A DNA stretch of 34,855 nucleotides from Candidatus Endomicrobium procryptotermitis. GTDB lineage: Bacteria > Elusimicrobiota > Endomicrobiia > Endomicrobiales > Endomicrobiaceae. Position 1 is the first letter of the stretch; the number at the start of each line of letters is the position of its first letter. The notes under the pieces were generated by a model. The model saw only the letters and a program-made list of their open reading frames with translations, searched no databases and was not told where the DNA came from. The position numbers were made by a program, and so were the translations under genes. The DNA is taken from NCBI GenBank assembly GCA_031279415.1, contig JAITIP010000023.1:1-34855 (forward strand), in the 5' to 3' direction. Shown here one piece after another: positions 639 to 29,744 of this stretch.

Positions 639-1610
639 CTACCCATTGTTCCCCCTTTTCTTTGTTAAATCGTTGTTCCGTGCGTTATATGAGGCTTCTA
701 TCTTAGGTACTTCTTTTTCATTAAACAGCCTTTCCGTTTCTTTGTAGTCTTCCGAATTGTGAAGTACGCCATCATGCCTATTTCCCTTTGAATCAGTCCA
801 GTCAAGCCCTGTGAGCTTTCTTTTTTCTTGGATAACAGAATCAAGCGTTTCTGTGCTTTCTGTCTCCTTAGCGCCGGAAGATATTTCAGTTGTAGAGTTT
901 AAATACTTCTCTTCCAAAATTTTTGTGTAGTTGTTGTCATTTTTAATAATCCAATCAAAATCGACCTTCCATTTTCTATTATTTTGTCCAAGTAAAAAAG
1001 GCTGCTTCACGATCGCTGTAAGGATATTATCAAAATTGAACTCTTTTTCTTTCAGGCGTGCCGAAAGTTTATCCTTTCTTGATGTAGTTAATTTACTCAC
1101 AGATGACAGATTATTAATCTTTGCAAACTCATTCCACTTCGTAAAAAAATCTTTTGGCGCCATGAGGGGAATCCCCTCTTTAGAATTGTCTTTAATATTG
1201 TCTTTAACAGCTATATATAGTGTGCTTGTTCTCATTTCGTTAACTTCCGATTCTCGTTTTGAGAACTCTTTGTTCTCATTTTGTGAACTTTCCGATTCTC
1301 GTTTTGAGAACTCTTTCCAACTGTCATAATCTTTATTTATCCCTGTTTTTCCGGTTCCTTTTTCATGGATCAATACATTCATTCTGATTAAATTATTAAA
1401 AGCTACGGAAACTCTACCCTTCGCAAGCTTCAGATCAGCCATTATCTTACTTTGCTTCAATGGCACAGACTTGCGATTAAACCCATAGGTTTGCCTGATC
1501 ACATATGAAACGATTTTCATTTCATTTCTCGTAAAATTGAAGAGATATACAGCCTCATATAAATCGTTTGCAATTTTAAGATATCCGTTTTCAATCTGTG
1601 GGTTCGACAT
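639..1610 (-). CDS. Phage replication initiator, O-like N-terminal domain
   Basis: A protein of about 323 aa probably initiates phage DNA replication and loads the DnaB-type helicase encoded upstream in the same operon. Residues 1-85 resemble the phage replication protein O N-terminal winged helix (GYLKIANDLYEA, then an IVSYVIRQTYGFNRKS region). A low-complexity middle repeats EFSKRESE twice. The C-terminal part holds KWKVDFDWIIKNDNNYTKILE, split here as KWKVDFDWIIK and NDNNYTKILE, a pattern seen at the ends of many phage replication proteins. The start at 1610 is chosen because GGAG lies 9 nt upstream; the ATG at 1619 directly abuts that GGAG and would have no usable site. It overlaps the preceding small gene by 20 nt, which suggests translational coupling. 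Confidence 0.75.
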   Translation of the reverse strand: MSNPQIENGYLKIANDLYEAVYLFNFTRNEMKIVSYVIRQTYGFNRKSVPLKQSKIMADLKLAKGRVSVAFNNLIRMNVLIHEKGTGKTGINKDYDSWKEFSKRESESSQNENKEFSKRESEVNEMRTSTLYIAVKDNIKDNSKEGIPLMAPKDFFTKWNEFAKINNLSSVSKLTTSRKDKLSARLKEKEFNFDNILTAIVKQPFLLGQNNRKWKVDFDWIIKNDNNYTKILEEKYLNSTTEISSGAKETESTETLDSVIQEKRKLTGLDWTDSKGNRHDGVLHNSEDYKETERLFNEKEVPKIEASYNARNNDLTKKRGNNG

Positions 1611-1842
1611 CGTTAGCATCTCCGTCTATGTCTTCTCTTTGTTTCTCAGAAATTTTTAAAAAAGCGGATGAAACTTTGCTATATTCCTCTTCAGAAAGCC
1701 ACGGCGTATCTGTGCTTAGACGGCCTTCAGTTGGATATCCCAAGTCTTTCAATAGCATTGTTATTAATAACCCTCTTTTTTTTATATCGAAACGAGAGAA
1801 TATATTTGCGTCCTCTTTATCTAAAATAATCTTGTTTGACAT
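1591..1842 (-). CDS. Small acidic protein of unknown function between helicase and initiator genes
   Basis: I do not recognise this 83-aa protein. It is charged, has no membrane segment and ends in an acidic stretch (DIDGDANDVEPTD). The start at 1842 is preferred over the ATG at 1860 because GGGGGAG sits 6 nt upstream of it and the helicase stop codon falls just before it. The gene is wedged between the helicase and initiator genes with overlaps at both ends, so it is almost certainly translated with them. A role in helicase loading or replication is a guess from position only. Confidence 0.6.
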   Translation of the reverse strand: MSNKIILDKEDANIFSRFDIKKRGLLITMLLKDLGYPTEGRLSTDTPWLSEEEYSKVSSAFLKISEKQREDIDGDANDVEPTD

Positions 1843-1843
1843 C

Positions 1844-3208
1844 TCAATCTCCCCCAACATTTAAATCTTCAAATCGACAAAATTTAAAGTTAAAAACAAG
1901 TCCTATTTCGCCTGTGTCTCCATCTCTTTGCTTTTCAATGATAAGCGTGGCAGAGTTCTTTAATTCAGGATCATCTTTTTTGTAGTACCCATCTCTATGC
2001 AAAAAGATTACCGTATCGGCATCTTGCTCAAGCGTTCCCGAATCTCTCAAATCAGAAAGCATGGGCTTTTTGTTTTCCCTTGATTCATTTTTTCTTGAAA
2101 GCTGAGAAAGAGCCAAAACTGGAACATTCAAATCTTTTGCGATTGTGCATAATCCTTGTGAAAACTCTGCCACTTCTTGCTCTCTATTTCTTTTAGAAGC
2201 GATATCGCTACCTTTTATCTTCTGTATATGGTCAATCATAACAAGCCCAATTGCCACGTTTTTAGACTTCATTTCCATTGCCCATTTTTTTGCACGCATC
2301 TGCATTTCCAAAACAGTTAGACCGGGGGTATCATCAATGTATATCGGTAATTCGGAAAGCTCTCTCGCAGCTGTGTGTAACTTTGAATATTCGCCATACA
2401 AACTGCCCTTTGATGGTTTTCTTATACGCCAGCCCTCAACATTTCCCATATTCGAAAAGAATCGATAATTTAATTTTTTGACAGACATCTCAAGAGAAAA
2501 CATTAAAACCGCTTTCTTTTCATTTTTCGCAATATTTAAACCAATGTTCAAGCCTAACATCGTTTTTCCCATGCTAGGCCTTGCGGCCAAAACTATAAAA
2601 TCACTGTTGAAAAATCCACCTGTCATTTCGTCAAGAAGTTTAAAACCTGTTTTTATGCTTAGGCTCTTGGCTTGACCTGTTATAATATCGTTAATCTCAT
2701 TCAATGTAGGTCTAACAGTATCAGCGATATGAACTATTCCATTACTGTTGTTTCGTTTCAAAATTTCAAAAAGCCTACTCTGAATATTCGATGTCAGAAC
2801 CAATGGATTATCGCTGTTTTTTAATAACTTCCCTTTGAATTCATGACAAGCATTTAAAAGCATACGGGTGTGAGAAAGTCTCAACACCTCTTCTGCGTAA
2901 TGTTCAGCATTGGCCGCAGAGCTCACAATGTCGGTTAGTTCTGTTAAATAGCTAAATCCGCCATGATCCTTAAACTGTTCGTTATTTTGAAGTCTGCTAT
3001 TAATATTTATCGTGTCGGCTTCGATATTCTTTACATAAAGGTCAATGATTGTGTTATATATAGTTCTATGCAGCTCAAAATAAAAGTCATCGGCTTTTAG
3101 AATATTGAATATCTGCGCAATTGTTTTTTGTTCGCCTGGTATCATCAGGCAACCGAGAACAGCTTTTTCGCTATTAATATCGTTTGGCGGAACTTTTGAA
3201 ATATCCAT
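1844..3208 (-). CDS. dnaB: Replicative DNA helicase, DnaB family (phage-encoded)
   Basis: A 454-aa hexameric 5'-3' helicase that unwinds DNA at the phage replication fork. The N-terminal DnaB domain spans about residues 5-110 (NSEKAVLGCLM). The RecA-like motor follows, with Walker A ARPSMGKT at 209-216, Walker B GLVMIDHIQ near 321-329, the LSQLSR sensor near 368-372 and the DLRDSGTLEQDAD block at 386-398. Length is normal for the family. The ATG overlaps the stop of the upstream 214-aa gene by one base, and the initiator gene lies downstream, so this is a phage helicase plus loader/initiator module and not the host dnaB, although that symbol is used. Confidence 0.93.
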   Translation of the reverse strand: MDISKVPPNDINSEKAVLGCLMIPGEQKTIAQIFNILKADDFYFELHRTIYNTIIDLYVKNIEADTININSRLQNNEQFKDHGGFSYLTELTDIVSSAANAEHYAEEVLRLSHTRMLLNACHEFKGKLLKNSDNPLVLTSNIQSRLFEILKRNNSNGIVHIADTVRPTLNEINDIITGQAKSLSIKTGFKLLDEMTGGFFNSDFIVLAARPSMGKTMLGLNIGLNIAKNEKKAVLMFSLEMSVKKLNYRFFSNMGNVEGWRIRKPSKGSLYGEYSKLHTAARELSELPIYIDDTPGLTVLEMQMRAKKWAMEMKSKNVAIGLVMIDHIQKIKGSDIASKRNREQEVAEFSQGLCTIAKDLNVPVLALSQLSRKNESRENKKPMLSDLRDSGTLEQDADTVIFLHRDGYYKKDDPELKNSATLIIEKQRDGDTGEIGLVFNFKFCRFEDLNVGGD

Positions 3209-3852
3209 TAATTATCAAACCATCCCGTTTCTATGTCATTTTTCTTTGCAATAAAGTAGCGCGTCATGAAAACCTTCTCGCCGAACTCAACGCCCTCAGG
3301 AACTTTCTCTATACTTTGACCTATGTCTGAACAAAGTTGAGATATTACAACGCCTATTTGTTCAAGTGATAAGAAGCTAAACATCTCAATGCTTTCTCCG
3401 TCTATCATGAATCCCTTTCTTAAAAATTGATCAGATACTATTCCGGTAGGCGCCGTTTTTTTTACATGACTGCCTTCTGTAAATTTTTTGCAGAAATTTT
3501 TTCCTGTTGAAAATTTAATGATATGAGAAGGAGTTTCTTTAACTTCTTTTATAATCTTATCTTCTTCAAATTCATATTTGACATCCCGAATATTTGTCAT
3601 TACTTTTTTAAACGTTTCTGAATCTTTATCTTTTATAAGAGTGCAGAAAAGAATAAGGGCTTTTTTGTTTACTACGCAGTTCTTCAGAAAATCCCAAAAC
3701 GCCTCATTGTCATTATGATACGAGCTTAAATAGTCGATCAGCATTTCCTCTACTCTTCTTTCTAAGCACTCCATTAATAAATGCATGTTTTTGTCTATGA
3801 TAAAACCAATACCATCTGTTGTCTGCTTTGTAACTTCATTTTTTTTGCTCAT
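3208..3852 (-). CDS. Hypothetical phage early protein (214 aa)
   Basis: I do not recognise a family. The protein is soluble, with a likely helical first half (MHLLMECLERRVEEML) and a Lys-rich middle (FSTGKNFCKKFTEGSHVKK). It is translated just ahead of the helicase with a 1-nt stop/start overlap, and follows the small helix-turn-helix gene. Position suggests an early function such as DNA metabolism or replication support. The ATG at 3852 has GGGGG plus a short spacer upstream, which supports this start. Confidence 0.6.
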   Translation of the reverse strand: MSKKNEVTKQTTDGIGFIIDKNMHLLMECLERRVEEMLIDYLSSYHNDNEAFWDFLKNCVVNKKALILFCTLIKDKDSETFKKVMTNIRDVKYEFEEDKIIKEVKETPSHIIKFSTGKNFCKKFTEGSHVKKTAPTGIVSDQFLRKGFMIDGESIEMFSFLSLEQIGVVISQLCSDIGQSIEKVPEGVEFGEKVFMTRYFIAKKNDIETGWFDN

Positions 3853-3868
3853 GCCAAGCCCCCTTGTT

Positions 3869-4099
3869 TTAAAAATCTCTCGTAAAAATATCCTTCTTTG
3901 TTTGTTTAATGCTTTTCTGCTTGTAGCTTTCTACTTCTTCAATCGGGATTCTCCATGCCGTGGTGCCATATATTTTGACAGCGTTAATCTTACCCTCCCG
4001 TATAAGAACACTTACTGTTTGTTTATGGAGATTAAAAATCTCTGCGAAATCTTTTATTCGCAAATATTTTATTTTTGAGTTGTTTTTTGTATCTTTCAT
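3869..4099 (-). CDS. Small helix-turn-helix DNA-binding protein (excisionase/MerR-like HTH_17)
   Basis: A 76-aa protein with one winged helix-turn-helix of the excisionase type: YLRIKDFAEIFNLHKQTV followed by SVLIREGKINAVKIYG and WRIPIEEVESY, ending in a basic tail. It is the first gene of the leftward early operon, directly opposite the repressor, where a Cro-like regulator or an excisionase would be expected. The family is used for both roles, so I cannot decide between them. GGGG lies 4 nt before the ATG. The preceding 230-nt leader is unusually rich in hairpins. Confidence 0.75.
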   Translation of the reverse strand: MKDTKNNSKIKYLRIKDFAEIFNLHKQTVSVLIREGKINAVKIYGTTAWRIPIEEVESYKQKSIKQTKKDIFTRDF

Positions 4100-4175
4100 T
4101 TTTCCCCGGCAACGACTATAATATTGTTGTGAAAAACATCTTAAATCTTGCTATAATTTGGGGGTATAAAAGGGC

Positions 4176-4255
4176 GAAAGGATAGCGAATAAATTCACTA
4201 TCCTTTCTATAGAGCAGACCGCTTGGCGTGAGCCTGCTTACGGGGAAATCCCCCG
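4176..4255 (-). other. Structured 5' leader of the early operon (three inverted repeats)
   Basis: Between the early promoter and the first early gene lie three inverted repeats: a 15-bp near-perfect palindrome (arms 4176-4190 and 4193-4207, one mismatch), a hairpin with AGCAG/CTGCT arms enclosing GGC/GCC (4213-4238), and CGGGG/CCCCG (4241-4255). In the minus direction the long hairpin is followed by only a short CCCTTTTA run, so it is not a textbook terminator. An attenuator, antitermination site or small immunity RNA are all possible. Confidence 0.45.
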
Positions 4256-4321
4256 ATATTATTAAAATGTTGAAAAAAAATGATTTGTTTAGCTTGCCAA
4301 GCATTCTTTCACTCACCCTTT

Positions 4322-4349
4322 TTGTTAAGTTCGCTTAACATTGTAATAT
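4322..4349 (+). promoter_or_regulatory. Candidate promoter for the repressor operon
   Basis: TTGTTA (4322-4327), a 16-bp spacer and TAATAT (4344-4349) point rightward to the repressor gene. It is weaker than the opposing early promoter and overlaps it face to face, as expected of a repressor-maintenance promoter. The GTTAAG/CTTAAC palindrome lies inside its spacer. Confidence 0.45.
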
Positions 4350-4358
4350 ATGCTTAAC
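4324..4358. promoter_or_regulatory. Putative repressor operator sites
   Basis: A perfect inverted repeat GTTAAG-TTCG-CTTAAC (4324-4339) covers the predicted start of the early transcript, and a further CTTAAC half-site (4353-4358) lies in the spacer of that promoter. Repeated dyad sites between divergent repressor and early genes are the usual layout of phage operators. Binding is inferred from position and symmetry. Confidence 0.6.
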
Positions 4359-4368
4359 ATTATGTCAA
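4340..4368 (-). promoter_or_regulatory. Strong sigma-70-type early promoter (leftward)
   Basis: On the minus strand TTGACA (4368-4363), a 17-bp spacer and TACAAT (4345-4340) give a near-consensus promoter, with a predicted start near 4333 inside a perfect palindrome. It would drive the helix-turn-helix, helicase and initiator genes and be shut off by the repressor encoded on the other strand. Confidence 0.75.
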
Positions 4369-4396
4369 CAGGGATTTTTCCCTCGGAGGTTCTCCT

Positions 4397-5026
4397 ATGA
4401 GCAAACAAAAAAGCAGCAATATTGGATTTGTAATTTCGGCGCTTTTGAAAGAAAGCAATATGACGCAAGAAGAACTGTCGTCTAAAATAGGCATTAGTCG
4501 GCCAGTAATAAGCGGATGGATAAATGCAAGATATGAGCCGACTTTCGAAAACGTAAAAAAATTAGCGAAGATTTTCGGAAGATCAATCTCTGTTTTTTCT
4601 GAAGACAATAACAGCTATATGGATGAAAAGGATATTATTCCATTAACAGATAAAAATACAATAAGAATTCCAATATACATTGACATTTCTGCCGGGGTTC
4701 CCAACTTTTTAGATGAAGATCCTTCCGGGTACGAAGATGTTCCACGCATTATTGCCTATGGCGCAAAGTTCGCAGTAAGATGCAATGGTGACAGTATGAC
4801 GCCTACAATATCAAAGGGTGACATTTGCTATATAAAACCTTCTATCGAAGCTATAGACGGAAAGATTATGTTAGTAAAGGTAGATGATGGGTTTACTTTA
4901 AAAAGAATTAAAAAAAATAAAGGCAAAATCGAACTTTTGTCCGACAATAAAAAATACTCCAAAACTAAATATAAATCCATTGAATTTATTGGCCTTGTTG
5001 TAGCTACAAAAAGAGAAATAGCATGA
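4397..5026 (+). CDS. LexA/CI-type phage repressor (HTH plus S24 peptidase)
   Basis: A 209-aa repressor that would keep the prophage silent and be inactivated by RecA-stimulated self-cleavage. The N-terminal HTH_3 domain is at residues 20-65 (MTQEELSSKIGISRPVISGW). A linker carries an Ala-Gly pair at 99-100, the expected cleavage site, and the S24 domain has the nucleophile in GDSMTP (Ser133) and the general base in FTLKR (Lys169). These spacings match LexA closely, so the protease appears intact. GGAGG lies 7 nt before the ATG. It is first in a rightward three-gene lysogeny operon (repressor, secreted protein, integrase), with a 4-nt ATGA overlap to the second gene. Confidence 0.93.
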   Translation: MSKQKSSNIGFVISALLKESNMTQEELSSKIGISRPVISGWINARYEPTFENVKKLAKIFGRSISVFSEDNNSYMDEKDIIPLTDKNTIRIPIYIDISAGVPNFLDEDPSGYEDVPRIIAYGAKFAVRCNGDSMTPTISKGDICYIKPSIEAIDGKIMLVKVDDGFTLKRIKKNKGKIELLSDNKKYSKTKYKSIEFIGLVVATKREIA

Positions 5027-5445
5027 GAAAATTTTTAATCTGTTTTCTTTTATTGCTTAGCTCGATATCGTTCGCCAAGGAATCAAGCGGCAGGCATTAC
5101 AAGGATGAATCCGAAGCCGGCATTAACATTCAACAAGTATTAAATAAGGCCGCGCATGGACAGTTCAGATATTTAGCTGAAGTCATGATTGATGGTGTAA
5201 ACAAAAAAAGAATCGCAGTTCATTATGCTGTTCTTGATAGTGAGTATAATTTAATCACAAAAGCAAATTCTGGATTAAACGGCGAACTATATGATGCTAT
5301 AAGCGACAGAGCCATTGCAAAGGGTGACATCAATATCTCGAATCAAGAAATAAAAAAAGCTAAATACGTTATGATTAATATTTTTATTATGCCTGACAAA
5401 AAAACGCCAATAAGAAAATATTTTGATTTCAAAATAGGTGACTAA
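5023..5445 (+). CDS. Secreted protein of unknown function inside the lysogeny operon
   Basis: A 140-aa protein with a clear signal peptide: MRK, then an FLICFLLLLSS core, with probable cleavage after SFA near residue 18. The mature part is a small mixed alpha/beta-looking domain with no Cys pair and no recognised motif. It starts inside the repressor stop codon (ATGA) and ends directly before the integrase ATG, so it should be made with both during lysogeny. Known phage genes in this position often alter the host envelope or exclude other phages, but nothing in the sequence proves that here. Confidence 0.7.
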   Translation: MRKFLICFLLLLSSISFAKESSGRHYKDESEAGINIQQVLNKAAHGQFRYLAEVMIDGVNKKRIAVHYAVLDSEYNLITKANSGLNGELYDAISDRAIAKGDINISNQEIKKAKYVMINIFIMPDKKTPIRKYFDFKIGD

Positions 5446-6573
5446 ATGGCATATCTATATTTAAAAAATGGACGATATTACATAAGAGATTATAAAAAAC
5501 AGCCTAAGATAGATAATAAAGGGCTACCTGTTAAGGATGCCGCAGGCAACGTTATTTATAAAAATGTTAACGTATGGATAAAATCTTCAAAAGATCATAA
5601 GCTTGCAAAAATAGAACTCGGCAAATACGAAGAAAACAAAGATCGTGGGCGTATAGGTTTAGATAAAAAGCATACTTCATGGCAAGATATAAAAGAAAGA
5701 TATATCGCTTATTCAAAAGCAAATAAGGCTCCAACAAGCGTTAATCTTGATGAACAGCTATTCAGAAATATAGAACAGTTTTATCCTTATATGACTTCTG
5801 TTGAAGATCTGAACATTTCCTTTTGTGAGAAATTTTTTGCTTGGCTGAAAAGCAGCGAGAAGAACGCAGATGCTACAGTAAAAAGAAAAGGCACGACATT
5901 AAAGAATATCGGAACAAAACTCGTTGATTGGTATATCCTTCAGATCAACCCATTGCAAAAACTTAAAATTCCAAAGGTAACTCAGGAAAAAGAAATACTA
6001 TACTGGCGTACTCCGAGTGAAACTCAAAAAGTTATTGATGAATCTGCAGGTGTGTGGAAAGACATAAATATAACTGGTTTTTGTATAGGTACACGAATAT
6101 CGGAGTGCTTAAATATGAGATGGAGTTTTATAGATTTTGAAAATAATTCCTATAAGATAGAATCCGTGGGAAACTTCAGAACCAAAAGCAGAAAATTCCG
6201 AGTAGGAAAGCTTCCGCCACCATACAAGGATCATCTTTTAAAACTTAAAGCTAAGCAAGCGAAAAACCCTAAAATCAAAACAGATAAAATCATTGTATAT
6301 GAAGATGGAACTAGTCCTACAATGAACAGCGCTTCAAGCTACCTAAAGAAATTTTACAATAGTATAGGGTTTCCGGGCTATCATTCTCATTGCCTGAGGC
6401 ACACATTCGCCGCTTTCTATTTGTTTGAATATAAAGACATCTACGGGCTTTCTAAGCTATTAGGACATCACTCTGTAGAGATAACAGAGAAATATTATGG
6501 ACATTTACTTGGTAATTATTTTGATGAATCTATGGCCGTGTTTAATCCGTTTAAATATGTGAAAAAAGATTAA
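5446..6573 (+). CDS. int: Tyrosine-family phage integrase (left segment)
   Basis: A 375-aa site-specific recombinase. An N-terminal basic, Tyr-rich arm-binding region (about 1-70) is followed by a SAM-like core-binding domain (about 75-170) and the catalytic domain. Catalytic residues visible are Arg217 (GTRISECLNMRW), His315 and Arg318 (HCLRHT), His341 (LLGHHS) and the nucleophile in TEKYYGH, probably Tyr351. Length is normal and the site looks intact. It begins right after the stop of the secreted protein with AGGTGA as ribosome site, so it belongs to the repressor operon. Its 3' end faces the 19-bp tRNA fragment at 6901, the probable attachment site. Confidence 0.93.
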   Translation: MAYLYLKNGRYYIRDYKKQPKIDNKGLPVKDAAGNVIYKNVNVWIKSSKDHKLAKIELGKYEENKDRGRIGLDKKHTSWQDIKERYIAYSKANKAPTSVNLDEQLFRNIEQFYPYMTSVEDLNISFCEKFFAWLKSSEKNADATVKRKGTTLKNIGTKLVDWYILQINPLQKLKIPKVTQEKEILYWRTPSETQKVIDESAGVWKDINITGFCIGTRISECLNMRWSFIDFENNSYKIESVGNFRTKSRKFRVGKLPPPYKDHLLKLKAKQAKNPKIKTDKIIVYEDGTSPTMNSASSYLKKFYNSIGFPGYHSHCLRHTFAAFYLFEYKDIYGLSKLLGHHSVEITEKYYGHLLGNYFDESMAVFNPFKYVKKD

Positions 6574-13312: not shown

Positions 13313-13399
13313 GGAGAGATGGCCGAGCGGTTTAAGGCGCAGTCCTGGAAAGACTGTTTATCTGAAAGGGTAACTAGGGTTCGAATCCCTATCTCTCCG
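13313..13399 (+). tRNA. tRNA-Ser(GGA)
   Basis: A complete serine tRNA: acceptor arms GGAGAGA (13313-13319) and TCTCTCC (13392-13398) with discriminator G at 13399; an anticodon stem CAGTC/GACTG around loop CTGGAAA, anticodon GGA at 13347-13349; a long variable arm; and a T-loop in GGGTTCGAATCCC. The 3' CCA is not encoded. It reads serine UCC/UCU codons. Its 3' end is similar but not identical to the tRNA fragment at 6901, so it is not that prophage's target. Confidence 0.95.
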
Positions 13400-13901: not shown

Positions 13902-14981
13902 TTATTTTGTTAATATGGAGCCTTGCAGCAAGTTCATATCTTCTTTTAAGTCTTCCTGAGTCAGATTAATATAAACATTGCTTGTCATTTTCACATTGGA
14001 ATGCCGAAGTATCTTTGATACTTTCAAGAGGCTAGCGCCTTTCCGGAACAATGTAGTTGCTGAATAGTGCCTAAGCGTGTAGGGTGTGATTTTTGGCAGG
14101 TTATATTTTTTTCGAATCTTATAGCAGTATACTGTAAAATTTTGCCGCGAGAGTGCCTCGCCTGTGTCATCGGCACATATAATATCGCTTTTAGCTGTTT
14201 CTTTGAGTTTTAAGAGATACTCCTTGAGCTCTGGCACTAAAGGTATGCCATTATCAGCATTCTCGGTTTTGGTGCCATTGGGATAGATCATATCGTTTTC
14301 AAAATCAATCCATGAATATCGTAAATTTACGCCTTCTTTTGGACGCATAGATGTCAGCCCTAGTATTATTAAGGCCGTCTTATGTGGATGTTCAAAACGA
14401 GATATAAAATTATTTACAACATCCGCCGATGGAACAGTGCCCCTGTACTTATATTCGCCAGTTATCTTTTGAACATATACAGATTGGTTCTTTAAATGGT
14501 AGTTTTTGAAATTTGCAAAAGTTAATAGCGCCTTTAAAAATGATAGCTCTTTATCTATTGTTGTTGGAAGTAAAGGAGTCTTTTTGAAAGGGCAGACATC
14601 TTGCCGGCGGATATACTTGTATTCGTTTACAATATCGGCATTAAAATTCTCTACATATTTAATATGAGGAAATTTGCTTAAAAACATCTTTAATATATAG
14701 CTATCTCTTTTTAAACTGTCCGGAGCTTTTTCTAAAACTTTTATTGAATGATTTTTGTACTCTTCTAAAAAGCTCTCAAACGGATAATTCTTGCGCGGCG
14801 CTCCAAATTTTTCTGCTTCAAGTCTTTCAAGTAGTTTCTTAATATACGGCTTAACCGCTTGCTGATCGGTAGATATAGGCTCTCCTACTTGAATGCCGGC
14901 ATTATTATAATAATAGACATAGTACATGCCTTTCTTACCGCGCTTCTTAACATGAAATAGAGATGAACGTTTCTTTGCCAT
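13902..14981 (-). CDS. int: Tyrosine-family integrase (right segment)
   Basis: A 359-aa recombinase, quite different in sequence from the integrase at 5446. A basic N-terminus (MAKKRSSLFHVKKRGKKG), a core-binding domain (about 65-165) and the catalytic domain are present. Visible active-site residues are Arg213 (TSMRPKEGVNLR), Arg304 (TLRHYS), His327 (LRHSN) and the probable nucleophile Tyr337 (SNVYINL). The His of the usual HxLRH box is Tyr301 here, a substitution tolerated in some members. It has its own short upstream region (AAGG 8 nt before the ATG) and is separated from the late operon by a terminator. Its 3' end lies 8 nt from the SNase remnant, the likely integration site. Confidence 0.9.
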   Translation of the reverse strand: MAKKRSSLFHVKKRGKKGMYYVYYYNNAGIQVGEPISTDQQAVKPYIKKLLERLEAEKFGAPRKNYPFESFLEEYKNHSIKVLEKAPDSLKRDSYILKMFLSKFPHIKYVENFNADIVNEYKYIRRQDVCPFKKTPLLPTTIDKELSFLKALLTFANFKNYHLKNQSVYVQKITGEYKYRGTVPSADVVNNFISRFEHPHKTALIILGLTSMRPKEGVNLRYSWIDFENDMIYPNGTKTENADNGIPLVPELKEYLLKLKETAKSDIICADDTGEALSRQNFTVYCYKIRKKYNLPKITPYTLRHYSATTLFRKGASLLKVSKILRHSNVKMTSNVYINLTQEDLKEDMNLLQGSILTK

Positions 14982-15535: not shown

Positions 15536-15545
15536 GGTTTGCCTC

Positions 15546-15941
15546 CTAAATTTTACTGACTATTAATATTGTCAATCCTACGCAAATACAAACGCCCGTT
15601 GTCGTCTTCCAAAACGTAGCGGTTCTTTCCGACTTCTTCCAAGACAGATAATATGAATCCGCTCTGCTTTCTGATGTCTTGTATTTCTGCTCCCAGAAGA
15701 TCTCCCGTTCCAGTGATAATTTTGAGGCTTCTATTTTGTCGTTCTTCATTTTCTCGACTTCTATCTGCATTAGATCTAAGAGATTCATCGAATTTTCGCT
15801 GGACTTCAGCGTCTTCTTTTCGTTCGCTACCAGTTCGTTGTATTCCGATTCCTTTACCAAAATATAAATATCCGAACCCAACGCCGGCGGCGAAAATAAA
15901 ACAAGCAATAAGAACAGCAACAAGAGCACTTTTAAGTTCAT
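15546..15941 (-). CDS. Overlapping lysis-cassette ORF A: signal peptide, coiled coil, C-terminal membrane segment
   Basis: A 131-aa product: N-terminal signal or anchor (LKVLLLLFLLLVLFSPPALG), a charged helical middle (about 28-105, repeating Glu/Lys heptad-like pattern) and a C-terminal hydrophobic segment (GVCICVGLTILIV). That layout resembles phage holin/spanin-type proteins with a periplasmic coiled coil. It lies almost wholly within ORF B (15553-15945) in another frame; its ATG is 4 nt after that of ORF B, and AAGGG is about 9-10 nt upstream. Many codons end in G, unlike most neighbours, which argues that this frame may be the younger one, or spurious. It directly follows the 3-TM holin candidate. 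Confidence 0.5.
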   Translation of the reverse strand: MNLKVLLLLFLLLVLFSPPALGSDIYILVKESEYNELVANEKKTLKSSENSMNLLDLMQIEVEKMKNDKIEASKLSLEREIFWEQKYKTSESRADSYYLSWKKSERTATFWKTTTGVCICVGLTILIVSKI

Positions 15942-15945
15942 TCAT
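15553..15945 (-). CDS. Overlapping lysis-cassette ORF B: spanin-like protein with N-terminal membrane anchor
   Basis: A 130-aa product with an N-terminal hydrophobic segment (about 7-29, including a lipobox-like LIAC at 12-15, but with more hydrophobic residues after it) and a long charged periplasmic helix (about 35-80, rich in Glu and Arg), then a small C-terminal part. This is the layout of an Rz-type inner-membrane spanin. AAGGG lies 5 nt before the ATG. Codon endings are mostly A or T, as in neighbouring genes, which favours this frame. ORF A covers nearly the same bases in another frame. The assignment to spanin rests on layout and position. Confidence 0.6.
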   Translation of the reverse strand: MNELKSALVAVLIACFIFAAGVGFGYLYFGKGIGIQRTGSERKEDAEVQRKFDESLRSNADRSRENEERQNRSLKIITGTGDLLGAEIQDIRKQSGFILSVLEEVGKNRYVLEDDNGRLYLRRIDNINSQ

Positions 15946-15946
15946 T

Positions 15947-16318
15947 TTAGCCCTTAGATATTTTATTTTTTAATGATTCCACTATAGAGTCAAATAATTC
16001 TTCAGGTATATTTACTTTTGTTTCTGTAGGCGCAAACAACTTACGCCAAGCAACCTGCATAAATGCGACACCTGGAAGCCCAAGCAAGATTCCAAACCAA
16101 ACTGAGTGATATTCATTCAACGCAAGACTTAATCCAAATCCAATACTGAAGCCTGAAATCAGCGTGATAAAGCCCAAAATAATGCCTTTTTTATCGCCAT
16201 CGCGGAAGTTTTTATATTGATTTCTTCCCCAATCCATAACGCCTGAACCTCCAATTGTAAAAAGCACTAAAAACAATACTAACAAAACAAACTGCATGAG
16301 TGAAAGTCCTAAAATCAT
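15947..16318 (-). CDS. Holin-like membrane protein (three membrane segments)
   Basis: A 123-aa protein with hydrophobic segments at about 4-25, 45-65 and 72-90 and a polar C-terminal tail (about 92-123, ending SLKNKISKG). GGGGG lies 7 nt before the ATG. It sits between another small membrane protein and the overlapping spanin-like ORFs, directly in the lysis cassette. Holins lack conserved sequence, so the call rests on size, topology and place. It would form the hole that releases the endolysin. Confidence 0.6.
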   Translation of the reverse strand: MILGLSLMQFVLLVLFLVLFTIGGSGVMDWGRNQYKNFRDGDKKGIILGFITLISGFSIGFGLSLALNEYHSVWFGILLGLPGVAFMQVAWRKLFAPTETKVNIPEELFDSIVESLKNKISKG

Positions 16319-28547: not shown

Positions 28548-29744
28548 TTAAGCTCTTTTTGCGAGCGTTATTGTCTTCGTTACAGCCGAGCTTCCGACAG
28601 TTATATCCGCTGTCTGCGTTACCTTACCCTGTTTTGTTACTCTGTAAGGATAAGTTCCGGCAGGCATATTAAATACAACCTTGCCATCCTCATCAGTCAG
28701 AAGCGCTGTGCCGTTTAACGTTACCCTTGCACCCTTAATCGCAGCTGGAGTTGAAGCATCGTCCTTAACTGTGAAAGTTACGGTCCGCGTATCGTAGGAC
28801 TGACCAGATTTCGCTTCCAAATATGCAAAAGGGAAGTTCGTTCTGTCCGGATCTAACGCAGTCGCTGGGTTCGGCAAAGCCCAACCCATCCTCAAGACGA
28901 CACGCAGTGCAACCATATCCTGCTGTGCGAGATTGTAGAGAATTTTATTCGAATCGTTCGGATCTGTAATTACACCTTCAGTCAGAAGTTTTATCGTGAT
29001 ATCCTGACGAATAGAATAAACCGCCTGTTTCCAGTCACCCACGATGAGCGGAGTTATTGAAGAATCAAATCCACCGTTTTCAGGGAAGAACATCGGTAAA
29101 CCATCCAGTGCATACTGAGTCCTTTCCTGCATTCCGTTTTTATTGAAAATAGGCTGACCGTTGGAGTCCTTAATTCCGCGCAAGTTGGCTCTCATAGTCA
29201 ATCCTGCTACCACACCGTTAGGCATATAACCGGCTTCTTCAACTTTGGAAATCACACCACCTTTTTCAAGTAAGAGATCATACATATTCGGATTGCTTGC
29301 CGGTATTTGAACATTATTGCCAGCATTGCGCGCTGATGTTATGATATCGTTGCGGAATCCTGCAGGTTTGTTTTTGCCGAAGATAATAGCTTCGTCAATT
29401 ACTCTGCCGAATGCTTCCTCAATTTTGGGCTGTATTGCGCCAAGAATGTCATAATCGGCATCAGCAAGTACGGCTTCGGAAATAGGCACGATTACCGCGA
29501 CTTCTTCAGCCTTAATCAAAACCTTATCCCATGCCGCCATTGTCGTCTGTTTCGTGCCGGTGTCGCCGTTTACCCAGTAAGCCTGCGGCAGCACATCGTC
29601 AACTCTCATCACTTCCTGCCCAGTCGTCATGTTCGGAAGTCTCGTCATCATTGAAAGAACAACTGATGCTTTGGGAACTCCGGACAAGATTCCGGGCAAA
29701 ATTACTTTTTCTAAAAGCGCTATATCTTCTCTTGTTATAAGCAT
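28548..29744 (-). CDS. Major capsid protein (HK97 fold) with C-terminal Ig-like domain
   Basis: A 398-aa shell protein. Residues about 1-312 match the HK97-like capsid family (EVAVIVPISEAVLADADYDI, AFGRVIDEAIIFGK and VALRVVLRMGWAL). The remaining part, about 320-396, is an extra Ig-like or prealbumin-like domain (TVTFTVKDDA, GARVTLNGTALLTDEDGKV, PAGTYPYRVT), expected to project from the capsid surface. No protease or delta domain is fused; a separate GP20-type scaffold is encoded upstream. AAAAGGAG precedes the ATG. Confidence 0.88.
   Translation of the reverse strand: MLITREDIALLEKVILPGILSGVPKASVVLSMMTRLPNMTTGQEVMRVDDVLPQAYWVNGDTGTKQTTMAAWDKVLIKAEEVAVIVPISEAVLADADYDILGAIQPKIEEAFGRVIDEAIIFGKNKPAGFRNDIITSARNAGNNVQIPASNPNMYDLLLEKGGVISKVEEAGYMPNGVVAGLTMRANLRGIKDSNGQPIFNKNGMQERTQYALDGLPMFFPENGGFDSSITPLIVGDWKQAVYSIRQDITIKLLTEGVITDPNDSNKILYNLAQQDMVALRVVLRMGWALPNPATALDPDRTNFPFAYLEAKSGQSYDTRTVTFTVKDDASTPAAIKGARVTLNGTALLTDEDGKVVFNMPAGTYPYRVTKQGKVTQTADITVGSSAVTKTITLAKRA

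Follow-up and report, generated by a model that had tools for sequence, protein, structure and literature searches.

Can one stretch of about 390 nt encode two complete membrane proteins, read in two frames that begin and end at nearly the same positions, and could the two proteins act together in phage lysis? We asked this of a locus in Candidatus Endomicrobium procryptotermitis, whose genome (2.0 Mb, 46 contigs) includes the window analysed here, one whole contig of 34,855 nt to which all positions below refer. Two minus-strand ORFs, A and B, lie in a prophage lysis cassette with their starts offset by 4 nt (ATGAATG) and their ends by 7 nt (Table 1). The sequence-only reading had described them as overlapping almost completely on the same strand, both frames being open, and re-deriving the coordinates and frames showed this description to be correct. 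Its further claim that the two starts have one ribosome-binding region in common was likewise borne out: TAAGGG is the only Shine-Dalgarno-like element found upstream of them, and because it stands 5 nt from the ATG of B and 9 nt from the ATG of A, both starts fall within the usual range. The stretch is also open antisense, in a 106 aa, arginine/serine-rich ORF (window 15653-15973, plus strand) for which openness alone was seen. If both sense frames are used, nearly every base of these 390 nt does double duty in encoding two membrane proteins that belong to one machine, and one of them would escape any gene caller that disallows overlaps.

Table 1. Features of the window discussed in the text, in order of position.
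Feature	Position	Strand	Remarks
Phage replication protein O domain	639-1619		Left-end phage-like module
Replicative DnaB-type helicase	1844-3208		Left-end phage-like module
Tyrosine recombinase	5446-6573		Left-end phage-like module
tRNA-Ser (GGA)	13313-13399		Adjoins integrase
Integrase	13902-14981		
Endolysin, M15 D-alanyl-D-alanine carboxypeptidase type, 129 aa	15146..15535	-	phrog_465 E=1.6e-38; Peptidase_M15_4 E=2.2e-7
TAGGAGG, endolysin ribosome-binding site	15542..15548	-	First three bases are the ORF A stop TAG
ORF A, 131 aa	15546..15941	-	+1 frame relative to ORF B
ORF B, 130 aa	15553..15945	-	
Membrane protein, 123 aa	15947..16318	-	Holin candidate by position; no family match
TAAGGG, sole Shine-Dalgarno-like site upstream of both starts	15951..15956	-	
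Protein with one membrane segment and coiled coil, 109 aa	16339..16668	-	Holin-like by architecture; matches weak

The prophage extends from the tRNA-Ser/integrase region to the contig end (13.4-34.9 kb), with its late genes (terminase, portal, capsid, tail and lysis) on the minus strand. The tRNA-Ser (GGA) gene beside the integrase is likely the attachment site; its 3' end does not recur within the contig, so the other end of the prophage probably lies beyond it. At the lysis end the gene order is 109 aa membrane/coiled-coil protein, 123 aa membrane protein, ORF B, ORF A and M15-type endolysin, with the stop codon of the 123 aa gene ending 1 nt ahead of the ATG of B. Like known two-component spanin genes, which are embedded, overlapped or separated and lie close to holin and endolysin, A and B form an overlapped pair (+1 frame) immediately upstream of the endolysin, though here they are fully coextensive. 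A host protein encoded in the left part of the window finds its closest relatives, at up to 68% identity, in Endomicrobium/Endomicrobia genomes, which places the host in or near that group of Elusimicrobiota. Since most genera of the host's family retain lipopolysaccharide and outer-membrane protein genes (PMC11257099), an outer membrane presumably must be broken at lysis.

Our analysis also revealed another phage-like module, located at the left contig end (window 639-6573) and apart from the 13.4-34.9 kb prophage. Judged by its database relatives, the prophage itself is strongly mosaic: its major capsid protein (window 28548-29744) has at least 600 IMG/VR matches at about 55% identity, compared with none for the portal protein, none for tail J and two, on small contigs, for the terminase. 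Neither A nor B had a credible homologue in IMG/VR, among named phages (tblastn), in 77 genomes of the family, in 341 genomes of the phylum or in 50 phage records, single-protein searches of viral contigs being of a kind that reaches close relatives only; nor did any relative sought through portal, tail J, terminase and capsid carry either ORF. Weak matches for B, to ATP synthase subunit c and low-complexity coiled coils, were discarded, and one candidate relative (L003) turned out to be unrelated.

Whether the second frame is open by chance was assessed with a null model in which one protein is held fixed, its synonymous codons vary according to genome usage, and stops are counted in the other frame; genes from 20 stretches of the same genome provided the background. 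With protein B fixed, frame A has 0 stops where 8.05 are expected (z = -3.85). The exact probability that A is open given protein B is 1.9e-5 with host plus phage codon usage or 1.2e-4 with phage usage, and that of B being open given protein A is 9e-8 to 3e-7, values uncorrected for the large scan from which the locus was taken. In 326 real-gene windows of the same genome the null was calibrated in the +1 frame, giving z values with a mean of 0.19, an sd of 1.01 and a minimum of -2.37. The longest nested same-strand ORF among 192 genes covers 41% of its gene, compared with ~100% here, and in 550 kb of DNA of <42% GC there is no other pair of ATG ORFs (at least 100 aa each) overlapping by 98%, the next best reaching 78%. 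The stop test had no power on lambda Rz/Rz1 (P open 0.59), which we had tried as a positive control and set aside. Because the locus was chosen from a large scan, somewhere in which a one-in-ten-thousand event is possible, evidence beyond openness was sought.

This evidence came from a recoding test, in which we sampled recodings of B under which frame A stays open and, conversely, recodings with A fixed. With B fixed and frame A open, the coding score of A was matched by 0.8-1.4% of recodings, its Pro/Gly-free middle by 0.5-1% and a combined score for a hydrophobic N-terminus, a hydrophobic C-terminus and no Pro/Gly by 0.1-0.2%, for features that were picked after sight of the sequence (from the sequence-only reading and our own inspection). 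With A fixed, the coding score of B was reached in <=0.005% of recodings and its N-terminal hydrophobicity in 0.1-0.2%. As the tests gave such results both ways, each frame holds information not accounted for by the other. The coding score of A exceeds 99.8-100% of out-of-frame windows and that of B exceeds all of them, yet B scores under 97-99% of genes; both ORFs lie between single-frame coding and non-coding sequence, as dual coding predicts.

B might nonetheless be the only gene, encoding an N-anchored lysis protein (i-spanin-like or other), with A open by chance and either untranslated or a by-product. At 2e-5 to 1e-4 for an open frame A, a scan of thousands of genes could turn up one such case, and 10.7% of real-gene windows reach A's coding score given B, which is not extreme by this measure; the start of B comes first with that of A 9 nt from the ribosome-binding site, the positional composition of B is normal, and homologues were not found. 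We judge this account rather unlikely, however, since the stop statistics lead us to expect about 0.01 or fewer such cases within the window, B has unusually poor codon usage for a gene read in one frame only, and A also has a well-placed start, a Pro/Gly-free helix and matching end segments, which is more than openness gives. The converse, with A the only gene and B spurious, could appeal to the textbook signal peptide of A and its usual ribosome-binding-site spacing, but it is made very improbable by the chance of about 1e-7 that B would be open given A and by the rarity of B's coding score among recodings with A fixed. A frameshift or assembly error, the true protein being a mixture of A and B, might be suspected in a draft genome where the locus lies on a single contig with no second copy to compare; yet disruption of a gene should leave stops in each frame, whereas A and B are open end to end, and we rejected this reading, which is hardly credible, as the sliding coding score along the stretch shows no switch between the frames. 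We regard B as a gene with near certainty, and A as quite probably one too.

Codon endings had also been taken to favour B as the ancestral frame. This stood as regards positional composition, in which B (GC1/2/3 of.53/.36/.32) resembles other phage genes and A (.36/.31/.53) does not, but synonymous codon usage did not discriminate, its rank correlation with the phage being tied at 0.30 vs. 0.31 for the two frames. We weakly favour B as the older frame.

The architectures attributed to the two proteins from the sequence alone (signal peptide, coiled coil and C-terminal membrane segment for A; N-terminal anchor and charged helix for B) proved to be as stated. A begins with a predicted signal peptide, MNLKVLLLLFLLLVLFSPPALG, with a signal peptidase I site at A-L-G before S (read by eye), continues with a charged helical, putatively periplasmic part of ~85 residues that is free of Pro and Gly between residues 23 and 110, and ends in a membrane segment at ~residues 110-130 that contains both of its Cys residues (118 and 120). 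Its single-sequence structure model is helical (pLDDT 71). We found no family match for A above the Pfam cut-off and no structure match, and Foldseek comparison of the single-sequence models of A and B with viral models returned helices only and no informative match. A departs from the standard o- and u-spanins: it has neither the lipobox nor the N-terminal Cys of an outer-membrane lipoprotein, and of the two marks of a unimolecular spanin (an N-terminal lipoylation signal and a C-terminal transmembrane domain) it has the C-terminal segment without a lipobox. Kongari et al. (PMC6139136) raised the possibility of an i-spanin, missed by their own criteria, that sits in the inner membrane in type I orientation through a C-terminal segment; the predicted form of A fits this.

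Both ORFs might also be genes without A being a spanin partner, A being for example a two-segment membrane protein with an uncleaved signal anchor that serves as holin, antiholin or lysis timer. Its two hydrophobic ends and missing lipobox would suit such a role, no gene of the cassette has a clear holin family match, and lysis genes of other phages (phiX174 E, leviviral) are of overprinted origin. We consider this doubtful, however, as the signal peptidase I site is good, the long charged helical part between the hydrophobic ends is unlike most holins, and the two other membrane-protein genes of the cassette are better holin candidates.

Protein B has an N-terminal hydrophobic helix at ~residues 5-29, with the hydrophobicity peak in residues 1-30, followed by a charged helix, and so has the type II form of an i-spanin, with an N-terminal transmembrane anchor and a predicted periplasmic domain. 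Its structure model, of low confidence (pLDDT 61), places a helix at residues 2-29 (pLDDT about 80-94) and a short beta hairpin at the C-terminus; no Pfam match was found for B. Within the hydrophobic stretch, LIAC (Cys15) fits the lipobox consensus [LVI][ASTVI][GAS]C as quoted by Kongari et al. (PMC6139136), and no other lipobox-like N-terminus was found when the prophage part was scanned in six frames. The stretch continues for ~14 residues beyond Cys15, which is membrane-anchor-like rather than lipoprotein-like. B could be either a classical N-anchored i-spanin or, via the predicted lipobox, the lipoprotein partner.

On balance we lean slightly towards A and B being a coextensive two-frame, two-component spanin-like pair, expressed from one mRNA and serving the last, outer-membrane step of lysis. 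Both would be translated from this single mRNA and its single ribosome-binding site, and exported as envelope proteins that cooperate in the outer-membrane step once holin and endolysin have acted. In this scheme A would have type I topology, with its signal peptide removed, a helical periplasmic part and a C-terminal inner-membrane anchor. Were B lipidated at Cys15, A and B would bridge the inner and outer membranes, the lipoprotein option being the one in which B physically reaches the outer membrane; were B merely N-anchored, the pair would be conventional on B's side, with A's link to the outer membrane left unexplained. The more specific version, a pair of inverted design in which a type I, C-anchored i-spanin (A) and a lipoprotein (B, Cys15) are encoded in coextensive frames behind one ribosome-binding site, is a tentative and in itself unlikely proposal. 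If both frames are used, the locus would also offer a testable example of a spanin topology that was proposed in 2018 and not searched for.

Overlap as such is common among spanins, 410 of the 528 known two-component systems being overlapped or embedded (PMC6139136). Neither A nor B has a periplasmic Cys, those present (118 and 120 in A, 15 in B) lying in membrane or lipobox segments, and 507 of the 528 known two-component spanins have one. The overprinted spanin-like pair put forward in the sequence-only reading was upheld as to dual coding, by the stop statistics, the recoding tests and the context. As to spanin identity it is plausible rather than proven, given the lack of a lipobox in A and of a periplasmic Cys in the pair and the weakness of B's match to the Rz-like spanin family phrog_1403 (E = 0.047).

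Among known systems, A and B resemble the embedded Rz/Rz1 genes of lambda in that two same-strand +1 frames in one lysis-cassette stretch would specify two envelope proteins. Lambda Rz1, however, is a 60 aa lipoprotein whose gene occupies 0.48 to 0.87 of Rz, and some 70% of embedded pairs have their o-spanin start at 0.4-0.5 L (PMC6139136), whereas frames A and B coincide end to end, an overlap that, if both are used, is more extreme than the usual half-length Rz1-in-Rz. Unlike Rz1, A also has no lipobox and has a C-terminal membrane segment.

A partner frame that extends past the other's end, as that of A does, is found in P2 LysB/LysC and in four Elusimicrobiota pairs (L021, L022, L025 and L029), the latter also having host phylum and a related endolysin in common with the A/B locus; in all of these, by contrast, the frames overlap only in part, and the partner, a small lipobox protein, has further Cys. 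In the Elusimicrobiota pairs (L021:2071-2410, L022:2077-2419, L025:2071-2383 and L029:841-1159) a 64-75 aa N-anchored protein is overlapped by the small lipobox protein, a conserved motif, AC.VGFDY.D.GVN.QNARALL, is common to L021, L022 and L025, apparently a spanin family of Elusimicrobiota. Since Elusimicrobiota phages with a related endolysin carry the Rz/Rz1 pattern beside it, spanins appear to be used in the phylum. We additionally observed, downstream of a related endolysin in L013, an N-anchored 100 aa ORF (5643-5945) overlapped by a 128 aa ORF (5842-6228) that carries a signal sequence, ending in SSVC, and a membrane segment at its C-terminus; these are the same shapes as B and A with a partial overlap, a likeness of shape for which no homology is claimed.

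With its N-terminal export signal and C-terminal membrane segment, A also recalls the unimolecular spanin gp11 of T1, but it is without the defining lipoylation Cys and is modelled as helical, not beta-rich. Finally, lysis proteins encoded across another gene are known from other phages. In phiX174, gene E is overprinted in gene D. The leviviral lysis genes likewise arose by overprinting (PMC7693330). In these phages, as may be the case here, a membrane-active lysis protein is overprinted on another gene; that other gene is structural or replicative, whereas at the A/B locus both products would be lysis-cassette envelope proteins, with start and end shared.
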